Shown here: positions 4,121-19,209 of the stretch, one piece after another
Layout of the letters: the number at the start of each line of letters is the position of its first letter
Numbering within the stretch: the stretch's first letter is position 1
Assembly (NCBI GenBank): GCA_024709145.1
Contig: JANJXG010000055.1
Span: forward strand, 1-64,000
Direction: 5' to 3'
DNA length: 64,000 bases
DNA from: Bacteroidales bacterium
Lineage (GTDB): Bacteria; Bacteroidota; Bacteroidia; Bacteroidales; F082
Position numbers and translations under genes: made by a program
The notes under the pieces: model-generated
Database searches by the model: none
What the model saw: the letters and a program-made list of their open reading frames with translations, nothing else
What the model was told of the DNA's origin: nothing

Positions 4121-5158
4121 TCATTCAAGGTTGTTCAGCAATTTGATCATCAGCCGGAACGAGAGTCCGGGATTGGCTACCTGATTGATGGTGCCTGTTA
4201 TCCAGATGTTTTTTTCGGGAATATAAAAGGCTACAGCTCCTGATAAACCCGAATGACCGAGAAATTCCGGCATGGCTTTGAAAGGAGAAAAGATGCGGGG
4301 TAGTTTGAAACGCATTAAACCCATACCGTATTGAAGTGGAAACATAATGTTGTTCCAGTTTTTCATGGCATCGAAATCTTTTTGAGGAAAGAACTGTCCT
4401 CCGAAAAAAGCTTTCAGGAACCGCATGCTTTCTTCAGCAGTTGACACGATGCCACCGTCGGCGCCAAAAGAGGCCATGGCAAGGGGGCAGGTCATGGGTT
4501 TCTGTTTGTAATAGATCGGTGCCGGCCGGGTATCATTGGGATCAAGGTATAACCAGGTATTCATTAGGCCGAGGGGTTTTACAATCAGGTCGTCGAGTAC
4601 ATCCTGAAGCGTCTTTTCGCTTATGACCTCAATAATTTTACCCAGCAGTTGGTAATTGGTATCGGAATAATGGGCTTTATGAGGGCTTCCCGGCGCAAAC
4701 TTTGTTTTCATCTGTTTGGTCCGGCTGATGGTGTCGTCAAATGTCCAGGCTTGATCTTCACCTCTGCAGATTTTATTAAGCAGGCTATCGTTGCCGATTT
4801 TGTCCTCAAAATAATCCGGCAGCCCTGATGTTTGAGAGAGCAGGTGTCCGATTGTAATCTGTCTGCTGTAGTCCTTGTCCTTCAAAAGGTGAAGCTCATG
4901 CATCACAGTTTGGGGCAGATAGTCTGCAATGGAGTCGTTGATGCTGATGATTCCGCAATTTTTCCAGTGAAGGAAAATGGCGGTAATGTAGAGTTTGGTG
5001 ATGCTGGCAATGAAGTAGGGCTTGTCGGGCTGCATAGTGCCCGATGAGGCCAAAAACTCTTTGTTGTCATTGCATACATGCATCACTGCACCGAATATCA
5101 TTTTGTTGTCGGTGTGGTTTTTTAGAAATTGTCCCAGGTCATTATCACCGTTCATCAT
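4121..5158 (-). CDS. Serine hydrolase, class C beta-lactamase / penicillin-binding-protein-like fold
   Basis: The 345-residue protein contains the SxxK nucleophile motif as S52-I-T-K55, a second motif YSD at 164-166 where YxN is usual, and a third motif in GHSG at 301-304. These define the beta-lactamase-like serine hydrolase family (esterases, D-aminopeptidases, PBP-like enzymes). There is no signal peptide or lipobox, so the enzyme appears cytoplasmic. Two adjacent ATG codons (5158 and 5155) could serve as the start. It is transcribed away from the asparaginase gene across a 361-base spacer. The exact substrate is unknown, and resistance activity is not implied. Confidence 0.85.
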   Translation of the reverse strand: MMNGDNDLGQFLKNHTDNKMIFGAVMHVCNDNKEFLASSGTMQPDKPYFIASITKLYITAIFLHWKNCGIISINDSIADYLPQTVMHELHLLKDKDYSRQITIGHLLSQTSGLPDYFEDKIGNDSLLNKICRGEDQAWTFDDTISRTKQMKTKFAPGSPHKAHYSDTNYQLLGKIIEVISEKTLQDVLDDLIVKPLGLMNTWLYLDPNDTRPAPIYYKQKPMTCPLAMASFGADGGIVSTAEESMRFLKAFFGGQFFPQKDFDAMKNWNNIMFPLQYGMGLMRFKLPRIFSPFKAMPEFLGHSGLSGAVAFYIPEKNIWITGTINQVANPGLSFRLMIKLLNNLE

Positions 5159-5519
5159 TCATCAACTTTGGTTCATCCGGCGAATTTCGGTAAAAAACTG
5201 ATTCGGCATTATAGGTTTCTGTTAGCTTAAGTATAGTTCATCTAAGTAATTGTAAGCCAAAGAATATGCCATTTTATTAAACCTTCATTTCCCGTTGTTC
5301 CTTTGTTTCTGTATTTGCAAAGAATACTTAGCTGTAAAATAATGGTTATCCACACCTTGAGAATTTCTAAGAGGATTGGATGTTACATTCAGGTCTTAAC
5401 AATCCTGATAATTTTGACTTGCTGTAACCTGGCTTTGTAAAACAATTTGATTGATGACTTGCTGAATATTGGTCGGAGTTTGCTCAGGGAGATTGATTAA
5501 CTTTGTTTAAAAATTAAAG
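5159..5519. other. Intergenic region between divergent genes
   Basis: This AT-rich 361-base stretch separates the divergent serine hydrolase and asparaginase genes and should hold both promoters. The only element I can point to is a TAACTTTG box at 5498-5505. I see no coding sequence, repeat or RNA structure. Confidence 0.6.
5498..5505 (+). promoter_or_regulatory. Putative -7 promoter box for the asparaginase gene
   Basis: TAACTTTG matches the Bacteroidota -7 consensus TAnnTTTG and lies 14 bases before the ATG at 5520. A TTTG upstream sits only 15 bases away, shorter than usual, so the -33 element is uncertain. Confidence 0.4.
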
Positions 5520-6521
5520 ATGGCAAACCGTCGTTCGTTTATTATTCATTCCTTCATCGGGGCATTGGCTGCCGGTCTGGGGTGTCGTTATGGCTATGCA
5601 ACACATGTTTTGGCTCCAGGTATGTCGCTACCGGCTCTGCCTGCTGAACTACCGGTGATTATTTCAACCTGGAATCATGGTCTTGCAGCCAACGAAGCTG
5701 CCTGGCAATCGCTGCTACATGGTGGTAAGGCGCTGGATGCAGCTGAGCAAGGTGTAATGGTTTCGGAGGCCGATCCTGAGGTAAACAGTGTGGGTTATGG
5801 TGGTCTTCCCGATGCTTCGGGCAAGGTAACGCTCGACGCCTGTATCATGGATTCCAAAGGAAATGCCGGGTCTGTAGCCTGTCTTGAAAATATCCTGCAC
5901 CCTGTAAGTGTAGCCCGCAAAGTAATGGAAAATACTCCCCATGTGATGCTTACCGGAGCAGGCGCTCTTCAATTTGCACTCGATCAGGGTTTTGAACAAA
6001 CAGACTTACTCACCGATGCTGCGCGAAAGGCCTGGGAAAACTGGAAAGCTTCAGGAGCACGCTATGCACCACAGGCCAACTGGGAAAACCACGATACCAT
6101 CGGATTGTTGGTTCTCGATACAGAGGCATCTTTGGCAGGGGCGTGCACCACAAGCGGGATGGCTTTTAAACATCCCGGAAGGGTGGGCGACAGCCCGGTG
6201 ATCGGGGCTGGCTTGTTTGTCGACAATGCCGTGGGTGCTGCAACAGCCACAGGCGAAGGAGAGGTGGTGCTCAAAACCTTGGGCAGTTTTTTGGTTGTTG
6301 AACTGATGCGACAGGGACACTCACCTGCCAAAGCCTGTGAGGAAGCAGTTCGACGGCTTGCCACCGCCACCTCCGTTCACAAACAGATGCAAGTTGGCTA
6401 CATCGCCCTCAGCAAAACCGGTGAGACTGGCGCTTTTGCACTCCGACCCGGATTTCAATGTGCGGTGCGGTCAGCAAAGGGCAGTGTTTTGCTCGATGTT
6501 CCTTCCTTGTTTCAAGATTGA
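5520..6521 (+). CDS. Glycosylasparaginase (N4-(beta-N-acetylglucosaminyl)-L-asparaginase) family, exported
   Basis: The 333-residue protein is an N-terminal-nucleophile hydrolase. The autoprocessing and catalytic motif HDTIG is at 191-195, so cleavage before T193 would create alpha and beta subunits. The family removes asparagine from the GlcNAc-Asn linkage of glycoproteins. The N-terminus carries NRRSFI followed by a hydrophobic stretch to about residue 20, consistent with a twin-arginine export signal, so the enzyme probably acts in the periplasm. Its 3' end overlaps the convergent gene 6512-7045 by ten bases. A related isoaspartyl peptidase/asparaginase activity is possible, but the HDTIG context favours glycosylasparaginase. 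Confidence 0.88.
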   Translation: MANRRSFIIHSFIGALAAGLGCRYGYATHVLAPGMSLPALPAELPVIISTWNHGLAANEAAWQSLLHGGKALDAAEQGVMVSEADPEVNSVGYGGLPDASGKVTLDACIMDSKGNAGSVACLENILHPVSVARKVMENTPHVMLTGAGALQFALDQGFEQTDLLTDAARKAWENWKASGARYAPQANWENHDTIGLLVLDTEASLAGACTTSGMAFKHPGRVGDSPVIGAGLFVDNAVGAATATGEGEVVLKTLGSFLVVELMRQGHSPAKACEEAVRRLATATSVHKQMQVGYIALSKTGETGAFALRPGFQCAVRSAKGSVLLDVPSLFQD

Positions 6522-7045
6522 GCTCCTTCAGGTGGTTCGTGCAGCTTCCGCAAGAAATCACCAAGCAGGACTGGCTGACTGGTGCCAATAAGCAGGTGAC
6601 GTCCATTATAAAACCATAACTTCAGACCGTGATCGCCCCGCACATTGTAGGCCTTGCCGCCTTTTCCAAAACGAAGACCCCAGCCGCCATAATCTCTCAC
6701 GGGATTGTATTTCACTACTTCGAACCGCTCTACCTCGTTCCAGCTGATGATTCGTTTTTTTCGTAAAAGTGGGAAAAACCTCAGTTCAATGGAGTTTTTA
6801 TCCACACGCGTCTGGAGCCGGGTCAGCGCAAAGAGGAGCAACAGACCCAAACACAGCAAAAGTGTGAGGATAAAGGCAAGGATAAGTCCCTGGTCGCTCA
6901 TCGGATTATTGCCAAAGCTTTGACCTTTGACTAGCTGAACATAGAGCCCTGCTCCAAAGATGACAACCGGAAGCAATCCTGATGGAATAAGCAGAAGCCA
7001 CAGCCAAAGCTGATCAAATTTTTGTGTTTCTGTAAAGACTTTCAT
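6512..7045 (-). CDS. Small membrane protein with bacterial PH-like domain
   Basis: The start is placed at ATG 7045, giving 177 residues. A longer frame reaches into the upstream zinc-ribbon gene and is unlikely. Two membrane segments (about residues 13-37 and 52-76) precede a soluble C-terminal domain. That domain contains the stretch YGGWGLRFGKGGKAYN, followed by a strand-rich region and an aliphatic helix. The layout resembles membrane-anchored bacterial pleckstrin-homology domain proteins and a DUF family often seen beside such genes. It is the last gene of a minus-strand set with the SPFH protein, the ribbon-helix-helix protein and the zinc ribbon. Function is unknown; a membrane-organising role with the SPFH protein is only inferred. 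Confidence 0.7.
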   Translation of the reverse strand: MKVFTETQKFDQLWLWLLLIPSGLLPVVIFGAGLYVQLVKGQSFGNNPMSDQGLILAFILTLLLCLGLLLLFALTRLQTRVDKNSIELRFFPLLRKKRIISWNEVERFEVVKYNPVRDYGGWGLRFGKGGKAYNVRGDHGLKLWFYNGRHLLIGTSQPVLLGDFLRKLHEPPEGAQS

Positions 7046-7076
7046 GACAGCTATTTTTTTTGCGATCTTCGTCCAC

Positions 7077-7286
7077 TTAGCCAACAAAGAAATCAAACAC
7101 ATTGCCCAGCATATTGGCATCGGTTTTGTAAAACTCTGTATAAGTACACCGACTGCAGGTTACAGTAGTGTATTTGTTGTTCTGAATGTCGAGGATTTTG
7201 GTAATGAAGCTTCCGGTAACATACATTTTACCGATTTCATATTGGTGTCCATTACATTTGGGACAGGTATATTTTAAAGGTTTCAT
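7077..7286 (-). CDS. Zinc-ribbon nucleic-acid-binding-like protein
   Basis: This 69-residue protein starts at ATG 7286, which overlaps the stop of the preceding gene by four bases (ATGA), a sign of translational coupling. It has two metal-binding pairs, CPKC at 8-11 and CSRC at 44-47, forming one zinc ribbon. The chain ends with a hydrophobic FDFFVG. The pattern fits the small Zn-ribbon family annotated as nucleic-acid binding. An alternative upstream start would add 26 residues overlapping the ribbon-helix-helix gene and is less likely. Role unknown. Confidence 0.75.
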   Translation of the reverse strand: MKPLKYTCPKCNGHQYEIGKMYVTGSFITKILDIQNNKYTTVTCSRCTYTEFYKTDANMLGNVFDFFVG

Positions 7287-7468
7287 GGGTTTGAATCGTT
7301 TGATTTGGTTTTCTTTTCTTCTTTCAGGCGCCCAGCGCTGCGCAAGGCTTTGTCGATAATCCACTCGATCTGCCCGTTGGTGCTGCGAAATTCATCAGCA
7401 GCCCACTTCTCAAGCGCGGCAAGTTTATCGGCGTCGATGCGCAGGGCGAAGGCTTTTTTCTGCGACAT
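7283..7468 (-). CDS. Arc/MetJ-type ribbon-helix-helix DNA-binding protein
   Basis: The 61-residue protein begins MSQKKAFALRIDADKLAALEKWAADE. It has one beta strand (FALRID) followed by two helices, the layout of an Arc-like ribbon-helix-helix repressor that binds DNA as a dimer through the paired strand. It follows the SPFH gene by three bases and overlaps the zinc-ribbon start by four, so these genes form one transcript. Small Arc-like proteins next to SPFH proteins are a recurring neighbourhood in bacteria. It may regulate its own operon, which is an inference from family and position. Confidence 0.8.
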   Translation of the reverse strand: MSQKKAFALRIDADKLAALEKWAADEFRSTNGQIEWIIDKALRSAGRLKEEKKTKSNDSNP

Positions 7469-7471
7469 GGC

Positions 7472-8320
7472 TTATTGGTGCAAGGTGCCGGTATTAACAA
7501 CTGGACTGGCTTCTTTGTCACCGCAAAGCACCACCATCAGATTGCTTACCATGGTGGCTTTTTTGTCTTCGTCGAGTTCAACAATATGCTTGGCGCTCAG
7601 TTGCTCGAGGGCCATATCGACCATGCCCACTGCGCCTTCAACAATTTTGAAGCGGGCCGAAACAATGGCTGAGGCCTGTTGCCGCTTAAGCATTGCCTGT
7701 GCAATTTCCTGGGCATAAGCGATGTAGTTGATCCGGGCTTCTATCACTTCGATACCTGCCATCTGCAGACGTTCGGCTATTTCCTTTTCAAGTTGATCGT
7801 TTACCTCTTCGCCTCCGGCTCTGAGCGTGATTTCGGCTTGTTCATCATCGAAATTGTCGTAAGGATACATACCAGCCAGCTTGCGAAGGGCAGCTTCACT
7901 CTGTACGACTACAAAGTTTTCGAACTCATCCACCGCGAAGGCAGCCTTAAAAGTGTCGGCAACGCGCCAAACGAGAACCAAACCGATCATGATCGGATTT
8001 CCGATTTTGTCGTTTACCTTTATAGGGTCACCATCAAAATTTCTGGCTCTGAGAGAGATTTTTTTGCGCACAAAAAATGGGTTGATCCAAAAGAAACCAT
8101 TTTGTTTGATGGTGCCGGCATATTTTCCAAACAGCACAAGTACTGTTGACTGGTTTGGATTGACCACAGCAAAACCCGCTGATAGAAAGGAGCCGATCAC
8201 CACAGGAATGACATACCATGGGTTTGTTGTGAGGATGATGGCAGCAATGCCTCCGGCGATAAGCAACAGGGCTATGACTAACATTAGATAACCCGAAGCA
8301 GGACGATGAGATTTTTCCAT
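7472..8320 (-). CDS. SPFH/Band 7 domain membrane protein (stomatin/prohibitin family)
   Basis: The 282-residue protein starts at ATG 8320. Two closely spaced hydrophobic segments (about residues 11-30 and 33-48) anchor it in the inner membrane. The SPFH domain follows, with PNQSTVLVLFGKY marking its start near 52, and then a helical tail with QAEITLRAGGEEV and long charged helices. SPFH proteins oligomerise in the membrane and organise lipid domains or proteases. It is the first gene of the set with the ribbon-helix-helix, zinc-ribbon and PH-like proteins. The partner protease genes (NfeD, FtsH) usually tied to SPFH proteins are not nearby. Confidence 0.88.
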   Translation of the reverse strand: MEKSHRPASGYLMLVIALLLIAGGIAAIILTTNPWYVIPVVIGSFLSAGFAVVNPNQSTVLVLFGKYAGTIKQNGFFWINPFFVRKKISLRARNFDGDPIKVNDKIGNPIMIGLVLVWRVADTFKAAFAVDEFENFVVVQSEAALRKLAGMYPYDNFDDEQAEITLRAGGEEVNDQLEKEIAERLQMAGIEVIEARINYIAYAQEIAQAMLKRQQASAIVSARFKIVEGAVGMVDMALEQLSAKHIVELDEDKKATMVSNLMVVLCGDKEASPVVNTGTLHQ

Positions 8321-10708: not shown

Positions 10709-12568
10709 TTATTTTGATTGCAAAGCCAGGATTGCAGCACTAAGTGGTTGTATTTGAACCGAATCGCTGTGTGTTGATCCATCAAGCAGATCCTTGTAGC
10801 TGGCATTTTCTCTCAATTTCAACCGGAAGCTTTCGTTTCCAAGATTAAAAGCCACAATAATTTCGGTGTCTTGATTGCCTCTTTTGTAGGCAAGTTTTTT
10901 TTCTTCTGCAACCAGGAAGTCAATGTCAGCCTGAAACAAAACCGGGTTTTCTTTTCTGATTTTGATCAGTTGTTTGTAATAATCAAAAGTGCGCTGATCG
11001 AAACCAACGGATTCGGTTATTTTTTCTCCGGCTTGAATATTGCTGCGAGTTTCGGGTTCAAAGTTCATTTCCGGCCACCAAAGTGGTTTGCGGCAATCGG
11101 GGTCATCAGCGCCCCACATGCCCATTTCTTCGCCATTCCAGATGTGTGGTGCACCGGGAATGGTGAACTGAAACAGCTGATAGAGTCTTAGTCTTGCGTA
11201 AGTTTCGGCATCAGGTTTGCCTGTGCGGTAGTTGGGGTCGTCGTTGGGTTTTGCTCTGAATTTGTATTTGCCCCTGTTGTAGAATGAAGTCAGCAGACGC
11301 GGGCTGTCGTGTGTTGAAGCTGTATTCATCATTGCCTGCAGGCTGGCCTTGTCGAGACGGTTCCATTGATAATGGAGGCTATCGACCAATTGGTCGGCGG
11401 TTATTTCGAAATCGGTTTGAGCAAAAAAGTAACGTGCGGGACGGTAAACCTGGTAAAACATGATAGCATCAAACACATCACCGCCAACATAGGGAACAGG
11501 GTTCATCAGTTTGTCGGGCCATTCCTGCCACCAGATTTCGCCTGTAAGGTAGGCGTCTGGTTTCACTGATTTGATGTATTGACGATAATCGCGCCAGAAT
11601 CCCATCGGCACATGGTCAGCCACATCAAGCCTGAAACCGTCGATACCGTTTTCAGGCCTTCCGTCTGGAGCGAGCCATCGTTTCGACACTTCAAAGATGT
11701 GTTTTTTCACTCCTTCCGGCAAATTGCCTTCATACGGAAAACCGGGTTTATGTCCTTCGGTAGCATTCACCTTTTTTAGTTCGGGCAGGCTGCTGATGTT
11801 GAGCCAGCCTTTGTAGCTGAATTCATTGTTTTCGCTTTGTGGATCGTCGAAACGGATGATTTCATACCAATCTTTGTAAGCCGATCTTTCCTGATTGGCT
11901 ACCAGATCTTTCCAAGCCCAGAATTCAACTCCGGTGTGATTCCACGAATAATCCAGGATAATGCGTATGTTTCGTGACTTGCATTGTTCAACAAGTGAGA
12001 GAAAAAGCTTGTCGGCTGAAGTCCATTGCCAGGTCTCAGGGTCAGCAGGATTTTCTGCTGCGATGATTGCCAGGTCGCCTTCGGGATCAGGACCGAAATT
12101 CACATCAATATGATGGTAGTTGCGCGCATCATACTTGTGCAGAGAGGGCGCATCATTGAGCGGATTGAAATAAATTGCATTGATACCAAGGTCTTGAAGA
12201 TAATCAAGCTTATTGATAACACCCTGAAGATCACCTCCGTATCTGCGAAGCTGCAAATGACTGTAAAAGTCACCTGGCAGCGCTTTGGCCCAGTCGTCAG
12301 CTGCATACCAATCTTTGGTCCAGGGCGTAATTTGCCAGTCCGTTGGCGGACTCACAAAATCGGATCCTGTAGTAATGGTCTTGATGCTGGGGTCATTGGT
12401 GGGGTCGCCATTGGCAAATCGCTCAACGAAAATCTGATACCACACAGCTTCTTTTGCCCAGGCGGGAACAGAAAGGGCATTTTTGGTTTCGGATGCCGGC
12501 CGGCTGCTGCAGGCACTTAGCATCAGGATGAGACTGATACCTGCACCTTGAACAAAGTTTGATTTCAT
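10709..12568 (-). CDS. GH13 alpha-amylase-family lipoprotein (neopullulanase/cyclomaltodextrinase-like)
   Basis: The 619-residue protein has a lipoprotein signal with LSAC, lipidated at C20. The GH13 barrel shows all conserved regions: I DYSWNH (206-211), II GFRLDVADH with nucleophile D315, III LTGEIWW with acid/base E344, and IV STHDS with D421. A C-terminal beta domain ends near residue 619. It cleaves alpha-1,4 (possibly alpha-1,6) glucosidic bonds at the cell surface or in the periplasm. It is divergent from susCDE across 286 bases, so it is the hydrolase of this locus and plays the SusG- or SusA-like part. No starch-binding module is attached to it; those are on the Sus binding proteins. 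Confidence 0.93.
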   Translation of the reverse strand: MKSNFVQGAGISLILMLSACSSRPASETKNALSVPAWAKEAVWYQIFVERFANGDPTNDPSIKTITTGSDFVSPPTDWQITPWTKDWYAADDWAKALPGDFYSHLQLRRYGGDLQGVINKLDYLQDLGINAIYFNPLNDAPSLHKYDARNYHHIDVNFGPDPEGDLAIIAAENPADPETWQWTSADKLFLSLVEQCKSRNIRIILDYSWNHTGVEFWAWKDLVANQERSAYKDWYEIIRFDDPQSENNEFSYKGWLNISSLPELKKVNATEGHKPGFPYEGNLPEGVKKHIFEVSKRWLAPDGRPENGIDGFRLDVADHVPMGFWRDYRQYIKSVKPDAYLTGEIWWQEWPDKLMNPVPYVGGDVFDAIMFYQVYRPARYFFAQTDFEITADQLVDSLHYQWNRLDKASLQAMMNTASTHDSPRLLTSFYNRGKYKFRAKPNDDPNYRTGKPDAETYARLRLYQLFQFTIPGAPHIWNGEEMGMWGADDPDCRKPLWWPEMNFEPETRSNIQAGEKITESVGFDQRTFDYYKQLIKIRKENPVLFQADIDFLVAEEKKLAYKRGNQDTEIIVAFNLGNESFRLKLRENASYKDLLDGSTHSDSVQIQPLSAAILALQSK

Positions 12569-12854: not shown

Positions 12855-15848
12855 ATGAAGAAAAGCAAGTCTTTGATGAGGATGTTGTTTTTGTCGTTGA
12901 TTCTACCTTTTGCCCTGCAGTTACAGGCGCAGAATGTGGCTGTGACGGGAAGAGTGACAGATGCCTCAGATGGTTTTTCGATGCCCGGTGTTACCATCGC
13001 GGTAAAGAATACAACCACGGGAACAACCACCGACTTCGACGGAAACTACAGTCTGAACGTCGCCAAAGGATCGGTTTTGTTGTTTTCGTTCGTGGGTTAT
13101 GAAACACAGGAATTCCTGATCGAGAACCAGCAAATGCTCAACGTGGTCATGCAGGCTGCTGCAACCCACCTGAACGAGATCGTTGTTATTGGTTACGGAC
13201 AGGTGCGCAAGGGAGATGCCACCGGCTCCGTTACCTCAGTAAGCGTAAAAGACTTCAATCAGGGCGTGGTTACCAACCCGATGGATCTCATCGCCGGAAA
13301 GAGTGCAGGTGTACAGATCACCAGCAACAGCGGTGCCCCCGGCAGCGGAGCTACCATCCGTATCCGCGGTGGTTCTTCGATGACTGCCAGCAACGATCCA
13401 TTGTATGTGATTGACGGGGTACCTGTTGACAACGATGGAATATCGGGAACCAGAAATGCGCTCAGTACGTTGAACCCAAACGACATTGAGACCTTCACTG
13501 TTCTTAAAGACGCCTCTGCAACCGCCATCTACGGTGCCCGCGCTTCCAACGGGGTAATCATCATCACCACCAAAAAGGGATCTGCAAAGGAAGGACGCCC
13601 TTTCATGCTCGACTATTCCGGTGCCTTTTCGCTTTTTACTATTCCTGCTAAGCGGGAAGTGCTTGATGGCGATGCTTTCAGGGCCATGGTGAACGAAAAA
13701 TTTGCCGACAAGCCCAATGTGACCGGATTGCTCGGTACCGCTAACACCAATTGGCAGGAAGAAATTTTCAGACAGGCCTTTGGCATGGATCACAACCTCA
13801 GCGTGAGCGGACAGTACAAAAAGCTTCCCTACAGGGTTTCTGTTGGCTATGCTGATTTTGACGGTATCCTTAAAACCGACAATATGAAGCGTACCACTGC
13901 AGGTGTTGTCTTAAATCCATCGTTCCTCGACGACCACCTCAAGGTTAACCTTTCTGCAAAAGGAATGTTTATCAAGCAACGATTTGGTAATGAAGGCGCC
14001 ATTGGTTCTGCTATTCAGATGGATCCAACAAAGCCGGTGTATGATGAAACCAACGATCTGGGAGGCTATTGGGCCTGGCAGCAGGCTTCAGGTGACCCCG
14101 TTTCTCAGGCAACAAAAAACCCCCTCGCACTTATTGAGCAAAGAGAAGATATGGCAAATGTGAACCGCTTTTTAGGCAGTGCACAGTTCGATTACAAATT
14201 CCATTTCCTGCCCGAACTCAAAGCAAACCTCAATTTGGGTCTCGACCGCACTGCCACGGATGGTGATATCTTTGTGCCCGGATTGGCATCATTTGAATAT
14301 GATGCTCTGAACGGTGGTGGTACTAACGGAATTTATGATCAGCAGAAAAGTAACGAACTTCTCGACTTCACGCTGACCTACAACAAGGAATTATCGCAGA
14401 TTAAAAGCCGATTCGATATCATGGGCGGCTATTCGTGGCAGCATTTTCGCCGCGAAGGCACCAGCTATTCAACCAACGACCTGAGCAGTCCGCTCTTTGT
14501 TCAGAAAAAGGTGAAAGACAGCAGCGATTATGCAACTGAATCTTACCTTGTTTCTTTCTTTGGCCGGTTCAACTATTATTTTAAAGACAGGTATATTCTA
14601 ACTTTCACTTTACGTAACGACGGTTCTTCACGTTTCTCGCCGGATAACCGCTGGGGTCTTTTCCCATCTGCTGCTTTTGCATGGCGCGTGATGGACGAAA
14701 GCTGGATGAAGCAATTTGATAACCTCTCCGAACTCAAGCTACGTTTGGGATGGGGTATTACTGGTCAGCAGAATATTTCTGACAACGACTATCCCTACAT
14801 GCCGCGCTACGTGCTTGGACAAGTGAACGCTGCTTATCCATTTGGTGGTATCTTTTTCCAGACGTTGAAACCCCGGGCCTATGATGCCCTCATAAAATGG
14901 GAGGAAACATCTACCATCAACCTTGCCATTGATTATGGCTTCTACCGTGACCGTATCTTTGGATCGATAGAACTCTATCAGCGCGAAACGAAAGACATGA
15001 TCAATTTTATCCCCATTCCTGCAGGTACCAATCTGTCGAACTACCTCCTTACAAACGTTGGAAACCTCACCAATACTGGTATTGAGTTTTCGATCAATGG
15101 CAAACCTGTCCTTAAAAAAGATATGCAATGGGAAATCGGGTTCAATGCTACCTTCAATAAGAATGAGATCACAAAACTTACGGCCACCGATGATCCCGGA
15201 TATCTGGGTGTATTTACCGGAGGTATTTCGGGCGGTGTAGGAAGCACCATTCAGATTCACAGTGTCGGCTATCCTACTTTCTCTTTCTTTGTGTTCGAAC
15301 AGGTGTATGATGCCGATGGAAAACCTATCGAAGGCCTTTTCGTTGACAGAAACGATGACGGTAAGATCACTGACGATGACCGGTATCAATACAAAAAACC
15401 GGCACCTGATTTTTACCTCGGTCTATATTCCAAATTCAATTACAAGAACTGGTCATTCGCTTTCTCAGGAAGGGCTCAGCTGGGCAATTATGTTTACGAC
15501 AATTTTAGCTCCAACAACGCAACCTACGAACGCCTTTACCGTCCCGAAGGTCCTTACTTGTCGAATGTGGCAGCCAATGTGGACGAGGCTGGATTCAGTG
15601 ATCCTCACTACCTGAGCGATTATTACATTAAAGACGCCTCTTTCTTTAAGCTTGACAACCTCACCCTTGGCTATTCGTTCAACGATATTCTGGCAAAAAG
15701 GACCAATCTATCTGTGTCGGCAACGGTGAACAATGTCTTCGTTATCAGCAAGTATGATGGTATCGATCCGGAAATCTTCAGCGGTATCGACAACCTGATG
15801 TATCCCAGAACAAGGGCATTTGTTCTTGGTGTCAATTTTACCTTCTAA
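12855..15848 (+). CDS. susC: SusC/RagA-family TonB-linked outer-membrane transporter
   Basis: The 997-residue protein has a signal peptide (to about residue 26, LQAQ). A carboxypeptidase-regulatory-like domain follows (VTGRVTDASDGFSMPGVT at 30-47, with DFDGNYSL and FVGYETQ), then the NEIVVIGYG segment, a plug domain (about 115-235, with IRIRGGSS and DPLYVIDGVPV) and a long beta barrel ending in VLGVNFTF. SusC proteins import oligosaccharides using energy from TonB, with SusD as the extracellular lid. The downstream SusE/F protein and the divergent GH13 enzyme point to alpha-glucan as substrate. It is the first gene of a three-gene operon, with 19 bases before susD. Confidence 0.95.
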   Translation: MKKSKSLMRMLFLSLILPFALQLQAQNVAVTGRVTDASDGFSMPGVTIAVKNTTTGTTTDFDGNYSLNVAKGSVLLFSFVGYETQEFLIENQQMLNVVMQAAATHLNEIVVIGYGQVRKGDATGSVTSVSVKDFNQGVVTNPMDLIAGKSAGVQITSNSGAPGSGATIRIRGGSSMTASNDPLYVIDGVPVDNDGISGTRNALSTLNPNDIETFTVLKDASATAIYGARASNGVIIITTKKGSAKEGRPFMLDYSGAFSLFTIPAKREVLDGDAFRAMVNEKFADKPNVTGLLGTANTNWQEEIFRQAFGMDHNLSVSGQYKKLPYRVSVGYADFDGILKTDNMKRTTAGVVLNPSFLDDHLKVNLSAKGMFIKQRFGNEGAIGSAIQMDPTKPVYDETNDLGGYWAWQQASGDPVSQATKNPLALIEQREDMANVNRFLGSAQFDYKFHFLPELKANLNLGLDRTATDGDIFVPGLASFEYDALNGGGTNGIYDQQKSNELLDFTLTYNKELSQIKSRFDIMGGYSWQHFRREGTSYSTNDLSSPLFVQKKVKDSSDYATESYLVSFFGRFNYYFKDRYILTFTLRNDGSSRFSPDNRWGLFPSAAFAWRVMDESWMKQFDNLSELKLRLGWGITGQQNISDNDYPYMPRYVLGQVNAAYPFGGIFFQTLKPRAYDALIKWEETSTINLAIDYGFYRDRIFGSIELYQRETKDMINFIPIPAGTNLSNYLLTNVGNLTNTGIEFSINGKPVLKKDMQWEIGFNATFNKNEITKLTATDDPGYLGVFTGGISGGVGSTIQIHSVGYPTFSFFVFEQVYDADGKPIEGLFVDRNDDGKITDDDRYQYKKPAPDFYLGLYSKFNYKNWSFAFSGRAQLGNYVYDNFSSNNATYERLYRPEGPYLSNVAANVDEAGFSDPHYLSDYYIKDASFFKLDNLTLGYSFNDILAKRTNLSVSATVNNVFVISKYDGIDPEIFSGIDNLMYPRTRAFVLGVNFTF

Positions 15849-15867: not shown

Positions 15868-18060
15868 ATGAAAAAAATCATATCATTGATTGCGCTGGCA
15901 GCCACCTTGATCCTTTTGGTTCCTTCCTGCGTAAAGGACCTTGATACAGTGCCGCTCGATAAAGATGAGCTCACACCTAATCAGGTGTTCTCAGATCCTG
16001 CATCCTACAAAATTTTCCTGGCAAAACTCTATGCCGGATTGGCCGTTTCGGGGCAGACCGGACCCTCGGGCGATCCTGATATCAGCGGAATCGACGAAGG
16101 CTTTGGCCAGTACCTGCGTGCTTATTTCTATCACCAGCAACTTCCCACCGACGAAACAGTGATCGGCTGGAACGACCAAACCATCAAAGATTTTCATGGG
16201 CAATCATGGGGATCGGGTGACGTATTTATTGCTGCAATGTATTACAGGATTTTTTATCAGATTTCGCTTGCCAATGAATACATCCGTGAAACAACGGATG
16301 AAAAACTCGACAGCAGGGGTGTTTCAGGTGACCTGAAAACTCAGGTGGAGCAATACCGGGCCGAAGCACGGTTCCTCAGAGCGCTGAGTTATTATCATGC
16401 CCTCGACCTTTTTGGTAATGTGCCTTTTGTGACTGAAAATGATGTGGTTGGCGCTTTCTTCCCAACCCAGATCAAACGCACCGCATTGTTTGAGTATGTT
16501 GAAGACGAATTGCTTGCCATTGAATCAGCCATGGCTGCTGCCGGCAGCAATGAGTATGGCAGAGCCGATAAGGCTGCCGTGTGGACATTGCTCGCGAAGC
16601 TTTACCTCAACGCTGAAGTCTACACAGGAAATGCCCGTTATGCCGATGCAGTGGAGTATTCAAGCAGGGTGATCAATGCAGGCTATGCTCTCGAACCCGA
16701 CTATGCCAACCTCTTCCTTGCCGATAACCATTTGTGCGATGAGGTGATATTTCCTGTAGCCTTTGACGGTATCAGAACAAAAACATGGGGTGGTACAACT
16801 TTTATCATCCACGCTGCTGTGGGTGGAAGTATGGATCCCGCTGCTTTTGGCGTTGATGGCGGATGGGGCGGCATCCGGACAACCAAAAATCTTGTGCAGA
16901 AATTTTATCCTGATGCCGAAAAAGGACTTAAAGTGTCACCAACACCAAAATCAATCAACGATTATCCGGTAATCTATCTTCCGGGTTCCTACCAGGGTTG
17001 GGATCCTACCAATCCAAACACTGTGTTGGCATCGGTGCTGTCCGACGGTAAATATGAAGGATATTATTATTTTGAAGCCGGGACAAAGTTTAAATTCACC
17101 GATGGCCCTTCCTGGGATGTCAATTATGGTGATGATGGTGCTGACGGTGTGCTCGAACAAAATGGTGCCGACATCGAAGTTACAGAGACAGGGATGTATA
17201 AAATCAACCTTGATCTGCCTGCATTGACTTATACCTTGGTTAAAACTGACTGGGGATTGATAGGAAATGCAACGGCAGGCGGCTGGGACAACGATCAAAA
17301 TATGAGCTGGGATGCTAATGCCGGTATGCTTACACTGATGGCTCCGCTTACCGAAGGCTTTATTAAATTCCGTGCCAACGATGGCTGGGATATTAATCTG
17401 GGTGACGGCAATCAGGATGGTATCCTTGAGTATGGAGGTGGCGACATCCCTGTGGCTGAAGCCGGAACATATACCATTTCCCTGAAACTTGGCGCGCCTG
17501 ATTACACTTATACACTCGTTCGCAGCAGCTTTGATAAAAGGGCTATGTTTTACACTGATGGCCAAAACCTCGAGATTAACGACATTGGTACTTTTACCGA
17601 AGGCTGGGCAGTTACCAAATTCAAGAACGTGACCCGAGATGGTGTGACAGGTTCCGACCTTACCCACACTGATACTGACTTCCCGCTTTTCCGTCTGGCT
17701 GACGTTTACTTAATGTATGCCGAAGCCGTTTTGCGTGGTGGAGGTGGCAGTACTGCTGAAGCTCTTACTTTGGTAAATGCTTTGAGAACAAGGGCTTATG
17801 GTGATGATGGAGGAAATATTTCTGCCTCCGAGCTTACCCTCGATTTTATTCTCGATGAACGTGCCCGTGAATTGTACTGGGAAGCACACCGCCGTACCGA
17901 CCTCATCCGTTTTGGAAGATTCAGCACAGGAGATTACCACTGGCCCTGGAAAGGAAATGTTCCGGACGGTACTGCAACCTCAAATCACCTGAATATCTAC
18001 CCGATCCCTTCATCCGATATCGGCGCCAACCCTAACCTCACTCAAAATGATAATTATTAA
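15868..18060 (+). CDS. susD: SusD/RagB lipoprotein with two nested SusE/F-like starch-binding modules
   Basis: The 730-residue lipoprotein (lipobox ending at C21) is about 190 residues longer than a canonical SusD. Residues 22-360 carry the SusD N-terminal helical part (EQYRAEARFLRALSYYHALD at 161-180), and 556-730 the C-terminal part (DERARELYWEAHRRTDLIRF at 663-682). Between them, about 366-458 and 461-551 form two tandem beta modules. They resemble the modules of the downstream SusE/F protein: GNATAGGWDN at 466-475 here against GDATDAGWDN there, each ending in a strand like LTYTL. Exposed aromatics include W378, W416, W473, W481 and W507. Removing the insert restores the usual SusD length. 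It should bind glycan and cap SusC. Confidence 0.93.
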   Translation: MKKIISLIALAATLILLVPSCVKDLDTVPLDKDELTPNQVFSDPASYKIFLAKLYAGLAVSGQTGPSGDPDISGIDEGFGQYLRAYFYHQQLPTDETVIGWNDQTIKDFHGQSWGSGDVFIAAMYYRIFYQISLANEYIRETTDEKLDSRGVSGDLKTQVEQYRAEARFLRALSYYHALDLFGNVPFVTENDVVGAFFPTQIKRTALFEYVEDELLAIESAMAAAGSNEYGRADKAAVWTLLAKLYLNAEVYTGNARYADAVEYSSRVINAGYALEPDYANLFLADNHLCDEVIFPVAFDGIRTKTWGGTTFIIHAAVGGSMDPAAFGVDGGWGGIRTTKNLVQKFYPDAEKGLKVSPTPKSINDYPVIYLPGSYQGWDPTNPNTVLASVLSDGKYEGYYYFEAGTKFKFTDGPSWDVNYGDDGADGVLEQNGADIEVTETGMYKINLDLPALTYTLVKTDWGLIGNATAGGWDNDQNMSWDANAGMLTLMAPLTEGFIKFRANDGWDINLGDGNQDGILEYGGGDIPVAEAGTYTISLKLGAPDYTYTLVRSSFDKRAMFYTDGQNLEINDIGTFTEGWAVTKFKNVTRDGVTGSDLTHTDTDFPLFRLADVYLMYAEAVLRGGGGSTAEALTLVNALRTRAYGDDGGNISASELTLDFILDERARELYWEAHRRTDLIRFGRFSTGDYHWPWKGNVPDGTATSNHLNIYPIPSSDIGANPNLTQNDNY

Positions 18061-18081: not shown

Positions 18082-19209
18082 ATGAAAAGGATTTTCGTAT
18101 TTCTAGTCATCATCACCGGTCTCAGCCTTGCCTTTTCTTGTGCCAAGGATGAGAAAGATCCGGTACTCGATATCAGTCAGGCAGTTAAACCTGCCATCAC
18201 CTTCCCGGCTAACAACGCAGCTTTTGTGCTGGCTGAAGCCGATCAGACCAACGAAATGGCCAACTTCCAATGGTCAGCAACCGATTACAAGCTTGATCAG
18301 CTCGCCAATGTGAAGTATATCCTGCAAATGGATCTTGTTGACAATACCTTTGCCAATCCCCTGACTTTACTCAGCTCTGAGGCAACTTCATTCTCGATTT
18401 CTGTTGGCACCATGAATCAAAAAATGCTTGGTGCAAGTCTGGAAGCAGGTGTTGCTCATCCTGTTTATCTCAGGGTAGTTTCGTTTATCACTGAGCAGGG
18501 TGGCTATGAAACGCTATACTCTGATGTCATCATGCTGACTGTGACACCCTTTACCACAGAGGTTGTTGTGAAACCAATTTATATGTTGGGTGATGCCACC
18601 GATGCAGGCTGGGACAACAATGTAGCTTTACCACTTACCTACGAAGGTGGAAGTGTATTTTCTATTGTTACCAATTTGCAAGCCAGCAAAGGGATCAAGA
18701 TCATCTCTCGTTTGGGCGCATGGGCACCTCAATGGGGAACTGATGCTACCGGCACACCAGAGGGCGGACCATTAATTTATCGTCCGGACGAAACTGTGCC
18801 TGATCCTGCGCAAATTCCTTCGCCAGCTGTGGCTGGAACTTACAAAGTGACCGTCGACACTGCCCTGTTGACTTATACCATTGGTCAGCCTACGCCAGAG
18901 CTATATCTTCTTGGCGATGGCAGTCCGGCAGGCTGGAGCAACACCGACGCCATTCCAATGAACGGCAGTGGCGGCAATTACAGCCTGACCATCGATTTGC
19001 CTGGTGGTGGCTACCTGAAGTTCATCACCACACTGGGCCAATGGGCACCTCAATATGGAACCGATGCAAGTGGAACTTCAGCTGAAGGGCCACTCGTTTA
19101 CCGTCCGGATGAAGCCACTCCCGACCCCCCTGCAATTCCGGCACCTGCCGCTGCGGGAAGCTATACCATTACGGTCAATACCACCAATCTTACCTACAAA
19201 ATCGAATGA
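18082..19209 (+). CDS. SusE/SusF-family outer-membrane starch-binding lipoprotein
   Basis: The 375-residue lipoprotein (C20 in AFSC) has an N-terminal immunoglobulin-like SusE domain (about 25-160, with FPANNAAFVL and FQWSATDY) and two C-terminal starch-binding modules (about 165-267 and 274-375). The two modules are close copies, sharing WAPQ(W/Y)GTDA and GPL(I/V)YRPDE. Tryptophans in GWDN (177), WAPQW (214, 218) and GWSN (284), plus W321, are candidate sugar stackers. SusE and SusF hold starch at the cell surface and have no catalytic activity. It is the last gene of the operon, 21 bases after susD, and is followed by a terminator. Confidence 0.92.
   Translation: MKRIFVFLVIITGLSLAFSCAKDEKDPVLDISQAVKPAITFPANNAAFVLAEADQTNEMANFQWSATDYKLDQLANVKYILQMDLVDNTFANPLTLLSSEATSFSISVGTMNQKMLGASLEAGVAHPVYLRVVSFITEQGGYETLYSDVIMLTVTPFTTEVVVKPIYMLGDATDAGWDNNVALPLTYEGGSVFSIVTNLQASKGIKIISRLGAWAPQWGTDATGTPEGGPLIYRPDETVPDPAQIPSPAVAGTYKVTVDTALLTYTIGQPTPELYLLGDGSPAGWSNTDAIPMNGSGGNYSLTIDLPGGGYLKFITTLGQWAPQYGTDASGTSAEGPLVYRPDEATPDPPAIPAPAAAGSYTITVNTTNLTYKIE

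Follow-up and report, generated by a model that had tools for sequence, protein, structure and literature searches.

For these pumps, the way in which glycan reaches SusC-SusD from separate surface binding proteins is an open question; in the locus described here, modules of the kind that sit on such proteins are part of the lid itself. Two reports liken SusC-SusD to a bin whose lid moves, and place surface binding proteins and enzymes on the SusC rim (PMC7618045, PMC7782687). The latter, a 2021 study of the levan system, finds that SusD need not bind sugar as long as the other components are there, and suggests that delivery can be taken over by a surface binding protein (PMC7782687). The locus lies in a stretch of 64,000 nucleotides from a Bacteroidales bacterium, the whole of which is called the window below. 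It is a small alpha-glucan locus, in which susC (12855..15848, plus strand; TIGR04056, 789 bits against a cut-off of 368), encoding the partner transporter, susD (15868..18060, plus strand) and a susE-like gene (18082..19209, plus strand) are co-directional with gaps of about 20 bases, while a GH13 alpha-amylase-family protein of 619 aa (10709..12568; PF00128, 168.8 bits) is encoded on the minus strand. The susE-like product, of 375 aa, consists of a SusE N-terminal domain and two modules, with PF14292 and PF16411 both over their cut-offs.

The susD product, defined by its open reading frame, Pfam matches, alignment and a structural model, has 730 aa. A lipoprotein-type signal with a lipobox-like cysteine, C21, is visible in its sequence, this cysteine is invariant among 25 long SusDs, and susC ends 20 bases upstream, so that both the signal and the place of the gene are those of the SusD/RagB family. 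Pfam places SusD-like_3 at residues 112-247 and SusD_RagB at 549-730, the latter with 123.1 bits against a cut-off of 23.1, which assigns the protein to that family; with 439.4 bits against a curated cut-off of 725, it falls outside starch SusD sensu stricto (NCBIfam NF033071). The protein also matches SusF_SusE (PF16411; 47.6 bits against 27.5, best stretch 464-585). It had been claimed that two SusE/F-type modules are nested inside the SusD fold at about residues 366-551, and the excised stretch, when searched alone, indeed exceeds the PF16411 cut-off, with 49.2 bits. In the window SusD, X25_BaPul_like (PF22058) reaches 20.3 bits in module 1 at 373-438, under the Pfam cut-off of 27, and in a homologue from another locus, L106, it passes with 36.6 bits. 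The SusE N-terminal domain (PF14292) gave no match at E <= 1 in either the window SusD or the excised stretch; the insert thus consists of modules of SusE type, and is not a whole SusE.

The boundaries of the insert follow from alignments to solved SusDs. The alignment to 3jys covers residues 39-347 and 555-730 only, skipping 348-554, and that to Bacteroides thetaiotaomicron SusD skips 352-547 of the window protein. Module-less homologues mostly have a turn of seven residues at this site (one has ten, and one cut-off row three), so the whole inserted stretch spans about 347-555. The proposed range therefore fits the modules themselves (366-554), and the insertion as a whole is slightly longer. 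On the plus strand, the N-terminal part of the core (residues 1-346) occupies 15868..16905, as aligned to the solved SusDs, and the linker entering the insert (347-365) 16906..16962; module 1 (366-459, with W378, K409 and W416) occupies 16963..17244 by HMM boundaries and the model, and module 2 (460-554, with W473, K500 and W507) 17245..17529 by Pfam, HMM boundaries and the model; and the C-terminal part of the core (555-730 and the stop codon), placed by Pfam and alignment, occupies 17530..18060. A frame or assembly artefact was rejected as the source of this arrangement, since numerous independent assemblies show the same unbroken frame.

Structure prediction agrees with this division. The main model was built from an alignment of 62 rows (A2), from which one- and three-module proteins and most cut-off ones had been left out; its mean pLDDT is 88.1, falling below 50 only at residues 19-27 and at 353-361, where the linker is predicted to be flexible. 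The modelled core has the SusD fold, with Z 51.8 and rmsd 1.5 over 462 residues against 3jys, and Z 49.2 and rmsd 1.6 over 463 residues against SusD with maltoheptaose; other long SusDs in the PDB, 7nek, 5cjz and 7bll, match the core of the window SusD, to which that comparison refers. The excised module pair, predicted by itself, reached pLDDT 96.7, and a Foldseek search with it at E < 0.001 gave four matches, namely SusF, SusE (two entries) and X25-2 of Sca5. Both modules were matched in order by SusF 276-485 (Z 13.2) and by SusE 178-387 (Z 12.2); across the SusE/SusF entries 4fch, 4fem and 4fe9, Z was 12.2, 11.9 and 13.2, with rmsd 5.0-5.1 over 172-174 residues. PF16411 was matched in 46 of 48 nested pairs. 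In a phmmer search against the PDB, the insert alone had no match at E <= 10, and a profile of the insert matched at E <= 1 only BT3088 (9sje, 9sji; E 4.5e-6 and 1.1e-5). By family and by predicted fold, the insert is a tandem pair of SusE/F type; Pfam, the split alignment of the core, the models and the structural matches all bear out the architecture that had been claimed.

Comparison with known systems helps to place this architecture. B. thetaiotaomicron SusD (3ck7-3ckc) and Bacteroides vulgatus 3jys share the core fold, the cleft residues and the place after susC with the window SusD, but are without nested modules. The C-terminal pairs of B. thetaiotaomicron SusE and SusF resemble the insert in fold, module order and Pfam family; there, however, the modules are found on separate lipoproteins behind an Ig-like domain, whereas the window pair stands inside SusD and without that domain. 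BT3088, the SGBPdex of the dextran system, is likewise a separate lipoprotein on the SusC rim (PMC7618045), and not a lid-borne pair. A starch-binding module nested in another Sus protein is described for SusG, with its inserted CBM58 (PMC11267923); the host there is an enzyme and not a lid. While a nested starch module is thus already known in SusG, its presence in SusD is apparently undescribed: no description of SusE-type modules nested in SusD was found in the literature searched, which comprised titles and abstracts with most subscription papers outside its scope. The ladder from zero to three modules and the repeated transfer discussed below add to the interest of the case.

What might such a lid do? 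Residues R84, W101, W307 and W333 of the window SusD align with the cleft residues R81, W98, Y296 and W320 of B. thetaiotaomicron SusD, and R84, W101 and W333 are invariant among the 25 long SusDs. In the same 25 proteins, all six residues of the two W-K-W sets (378/409/416 and 473/500/507) are invariant. Each set is presumed, from its sequence, to form the sugar site of its module; its spacing presumably resembles that of the glycogen-binding module of AMPK, and the AMPK1_CBM profile was matched by three of the 48 nested pairs. We put a probability of roughly 60% on the reading that this is an alpha-glucan SusD lid in which the C-terminal module pair of a SusE-type protein is nested, offering extra glucan sites beside SusE, and the presence of susC, susE and GH13 in the locus supports it. 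According to this reading, a starch- or glycogen-type lid would have taken such a pair into its fold; the core would retain its own starch cleft, and the flexible linker would lead out to the two beta modules before the chain re-enters the core. Two modules of about 95 residues each would hardly fit into the closed cavity, and should therefore project outward. They most likely bind alpha-glucan chains, each through its W-K-W set, which is of the kind seen in starch modules; as the lid moves between open and closed, they may keep these chains at the SusC mouth, from where the chains could be handed over to SusC. Part of the job of SusE would then be carried by the lid, alongside a separate SusE.

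The position of the insert suggests another role. Since the insertion starts only 14 residues after W333, the last aromatic residue of the starch cleft, the modules might be a gate or spacer at the lid edge, setting the chain lengths or branch patterns that reach the cleft; the length of a near-cleft loop is reported to split two groups of marine alpha-glucan SusDs (PMC11093988). These looped and open SusDs of marine Flavobacteriia do vary near the binding site, but by a loop of about 17 residues and not by a domain (PMC11093988). A linker with pLDDT below 50 at 353-361 would, moreover, make a poor gate, and we regard this role as very unlikely.

Other long SusDs with SusF_SusE modules inside, for which the original prediction had proposed a search, were indeed found. 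Matches across the whole insert occur in at least 6 of 61 near genomes, at least 9 of 173 genomes of the family, at least 17 of 393 in a sample of the order and at least 3 of 395 in a sample of the phylum, the own genome being counted each time; these are lower bounds, because few candidates were scored per genome (up to 18, 6, 2 and 2, respectively, with differing E cut-offs). In two further genomes of the order sample, G343 and G135, the match was partial or split. Among the best 80 loci of a scan of species genomes, 14 SusDs are without a module, seven have one, two have three, and 57 either have two modules or are cut off by a contig end. These 80 loci include ones from Bacteroidales, Prolixibacteraceae, Lentimicrobiaceae, Saprospiraceae, Lewinellaceae and Chitinophagales, and the one-module SusDs among them are mostly from Flavobacteriaceae, Lutibacter and Polaribacter. 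The three-module SusDs (L123:4968-7526 and L125:770-3325) have 852-853 aa, and the third module clusters with the second in three-module SusDs (5 rows, 99/96).

From the phylum survey, 16 loci of interest were taken. Half of them (L157-L164), from one family in another class of the phylum, have SusDs with open frames of about 640-670 aa and one nested module each, always of the first type. In three others the sole module is of the second type, with a weak score of 33.6 bits in one case; two have two modules, and in three long SusDs no module was found. L155, L156 and L168 have SusD open frames of 609-624 aa in which no module was found. Altogether, the range of SusDs with zero, one, two or three modules at this site extends over Bacteroidales, Saprospiraceae, Chitinophagales, Flavobacteriaceae and a further class of the same phylum.

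The source of the modules is not the gene next door. The original prediction had noted their likeness to the modules of the neighbouring SusE/F protein, which proved marginal: BLASTP aligns 63 residues with 30% identity (E 1e-4, calculated for one comparison), the identity over the aligned pair is 33%, and the module profile gives 11.7 bits. The modules of the window SusE are of another type than those nested in the adjoining SusD and stand apart from them on the tree, and an origin of the insert by copying from this SusE was therefore rejected. SusE proteins of many other loci, on the other hand, match the inserted pair with about 100-145 bits per module, and judged by sequence these proteins, and not the window SusE, are the closest kin of the insert outside SusD. 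The distance between the window SusE and the insert counts against lid-borne glucan sites. In L006, L062 and L007, SusE modules likewise differ in type from those nested in the adjoining SusD. The own genome also encodes, on the minus strand of contig C77 (L002:1174-3036), a lipoprotein-like protein of 620 aa with SusF_SusE at 70.7 bits in two stretches, the last modules of which resemble those of the window SusE.

The nested state has changed repeatedly among related SusDs. On a FastTree backbone tree of 134 SusDs, with the module residues removed and without L040, L042, partial proteins and eight duplicates, the two-module state changes 13 times, of which at least eight changes are forced by starred branches, gain and loss being indistinguishable on this tree. 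Two pairs of sisters illustrate these changes. The cores of L008 and L016 share 89% identity on the N-terminal side of the site and 86% on the C-terminal side, one protein having the pair and the other a short turn, and those of L063 and L068, 83% and 86% identical, differ likewise by the pair. The original prediction had considered that the insert might belong regularly to some long SusD subfamily already known, which would speak against it; this applies by half, in that the architecture recurs but comes and goes on the SusD tree, and no paper on it was found in the literature searched. Lids with zero to three modules, some on nearly the same core, are natural variants with which lid-borne sites could be tested, and would bear on capture, lid closure and uptake.

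Changes of this frequency would also be expected if the loop were merely tolerant, its modules being near-neutral passengers swapped by recombination between adjoining genes. One locus looks like such a swap: in L100 (SusD 5001-7202, SusE 7206-8279), the nested pair is 67% identical to its own SusE and 60% to the best other SusD pair, a sign of recent exchange between adjoining genes. It is the single exception among 37 loci, as in the other 36 the closest relative of the SusD pair is a second SusD pair and not the SusE of its own locus (median 74% vs 52%). Alignment A3 comprised 31 of the 46 SusD pairs and 17 SusE pairs, the SusD pieces of L126 and the first of L129 being left out. On the tree of pairs, SusD-borne and SusE pairs fall into mostly separate groups, with four changes. 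Fold residues and W-K-W sets are, furthermore, conserved across large distances, which argues against passengers, and we consider a merely tolerant loop quite improbable.

The trees of the single modules suggest that lids acquired them more than once. On the module 2 tree, the single flavobacterial modules form a clade with modules of three-module SusEs (29 rows, 98/96). A single clade of all SusD-borne modules was rejected by AU tests for module 1 (p 0.008) and for module 2 (p 0.020), p-values that are only indicative, because the tests, on 94 and 102 columns and random subsets of rows, were set up after a quick tree had hinted at the split. With the same proviso, one single insertion at the root of all SusD-borne modules was rejected, and SusE-type modules would have entered SusD more than once. 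We read this as more than one transfer from SusE-type genes into one loop, after which modules were lost, whole alleles were exchanged, or both; the direction from SusE to SusD is one that we infer, as the trees are unrooted. In a wider form, to which we give about even odds, this SusD loop would be a repeated acceptor that modules entered independently in at least two lineages, yielding lids with zero to three modules that carry glucan chains to the transporter. The pair would have entered in Bacteroidales and Saprospiraceae, one module of a different type in Flavobacteriaceae, and perhaps a third type, also as a single module, in another class.

In 54 loci with a nested SusD, 1.2 kb or more of downstream sequence is available, and in 42 of these a SusE-like gene adjoins susD (37 recognised by the module profile and five more by the SusE N-terminal domain). 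In SusE modules, each W-K-W position is conserved throughout the 40 module 1 rows, which comprise 39 SusEs and one SusD fragment (L124, absent from the AU-tested module 1 tree), and in 38 of 39 rows for module 2. The sets are also kept, with few exceptions, in one- and three-module SusDs. In 13 two-module loci, no SusE-like lipoprotein was found in the locus DNA (L118 having only 146 bases past SusD), and there the module 1 set is intact in none of the 13 SusDs; the module 2 set is intact in five, lost in four and not scored in four proteins in which module 2 lies under 50 bits. The other two-module SusDs, for some but not all of which a SusE is in view, retain the module 1 set in 42 of 46 cases and that of module 2 in 43. 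The four without the module 1 set include L169 and L170, in which no SusE is seen either in about 2 kb downstream. Since the 13 SusDs form one clade on the backbone tree, the loss counts as one event and not as 13. It would thus seem that the nested sites are retained chiefly in loci with a SusE, and this suggests a joint action of lid and SusE on the same chains. In the SusE-less clade, the modules may have changed use or decayed, as far as sequence can tell. That nested modules substitute for a missing SusE was considered and is not supported, as the W-K-W sets decay precisely there.

The same loss counts against lid-borne glucan sites, and the decay of the sets in one clade agrees with a tolerant loop as well. 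It also leaves room for a third possibility, namely that the nested modules mainly dock the GH13 enzyme or SusE to the lid, sugar binding being secondary or absent. Nested modules can persist without the W-K-W residues, as they do in all 13 members of the clade after the loss in module 1, and in some loci the neighbouring proteins contain numerous copies of related beta modules. A docking role leaves the W-K-W sets kept in most other two-module SusDs, in most one- and three-module SusDs and in SusE modules to be accounted for, and we hold it to be unlikely. The original interpretation is, overall, partly supported: the nesting of two SusE/F-type modules in a SusD fold is borne out, and the direct feeding of glycan into SusC would be a further, putative step.

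In 12 of the 13 SusE-less loci, a protein of about 540-625 aa with five SusE-type modules is present instead, the exception being L140, in which 2.5 kb upstream were examined. These proteins are encoded in Saprospiraceae and related loci, at L107:7257-9053 and L119:7221-8999 and, near the start of the locus on the minus strand, in L105, L110, L113-L118, L122 and L142. Both of those scanned end in a T9SS sorting domain. Similar proteins adjoin a SusE in L103 and L134, and a cut-off one does so in L102.
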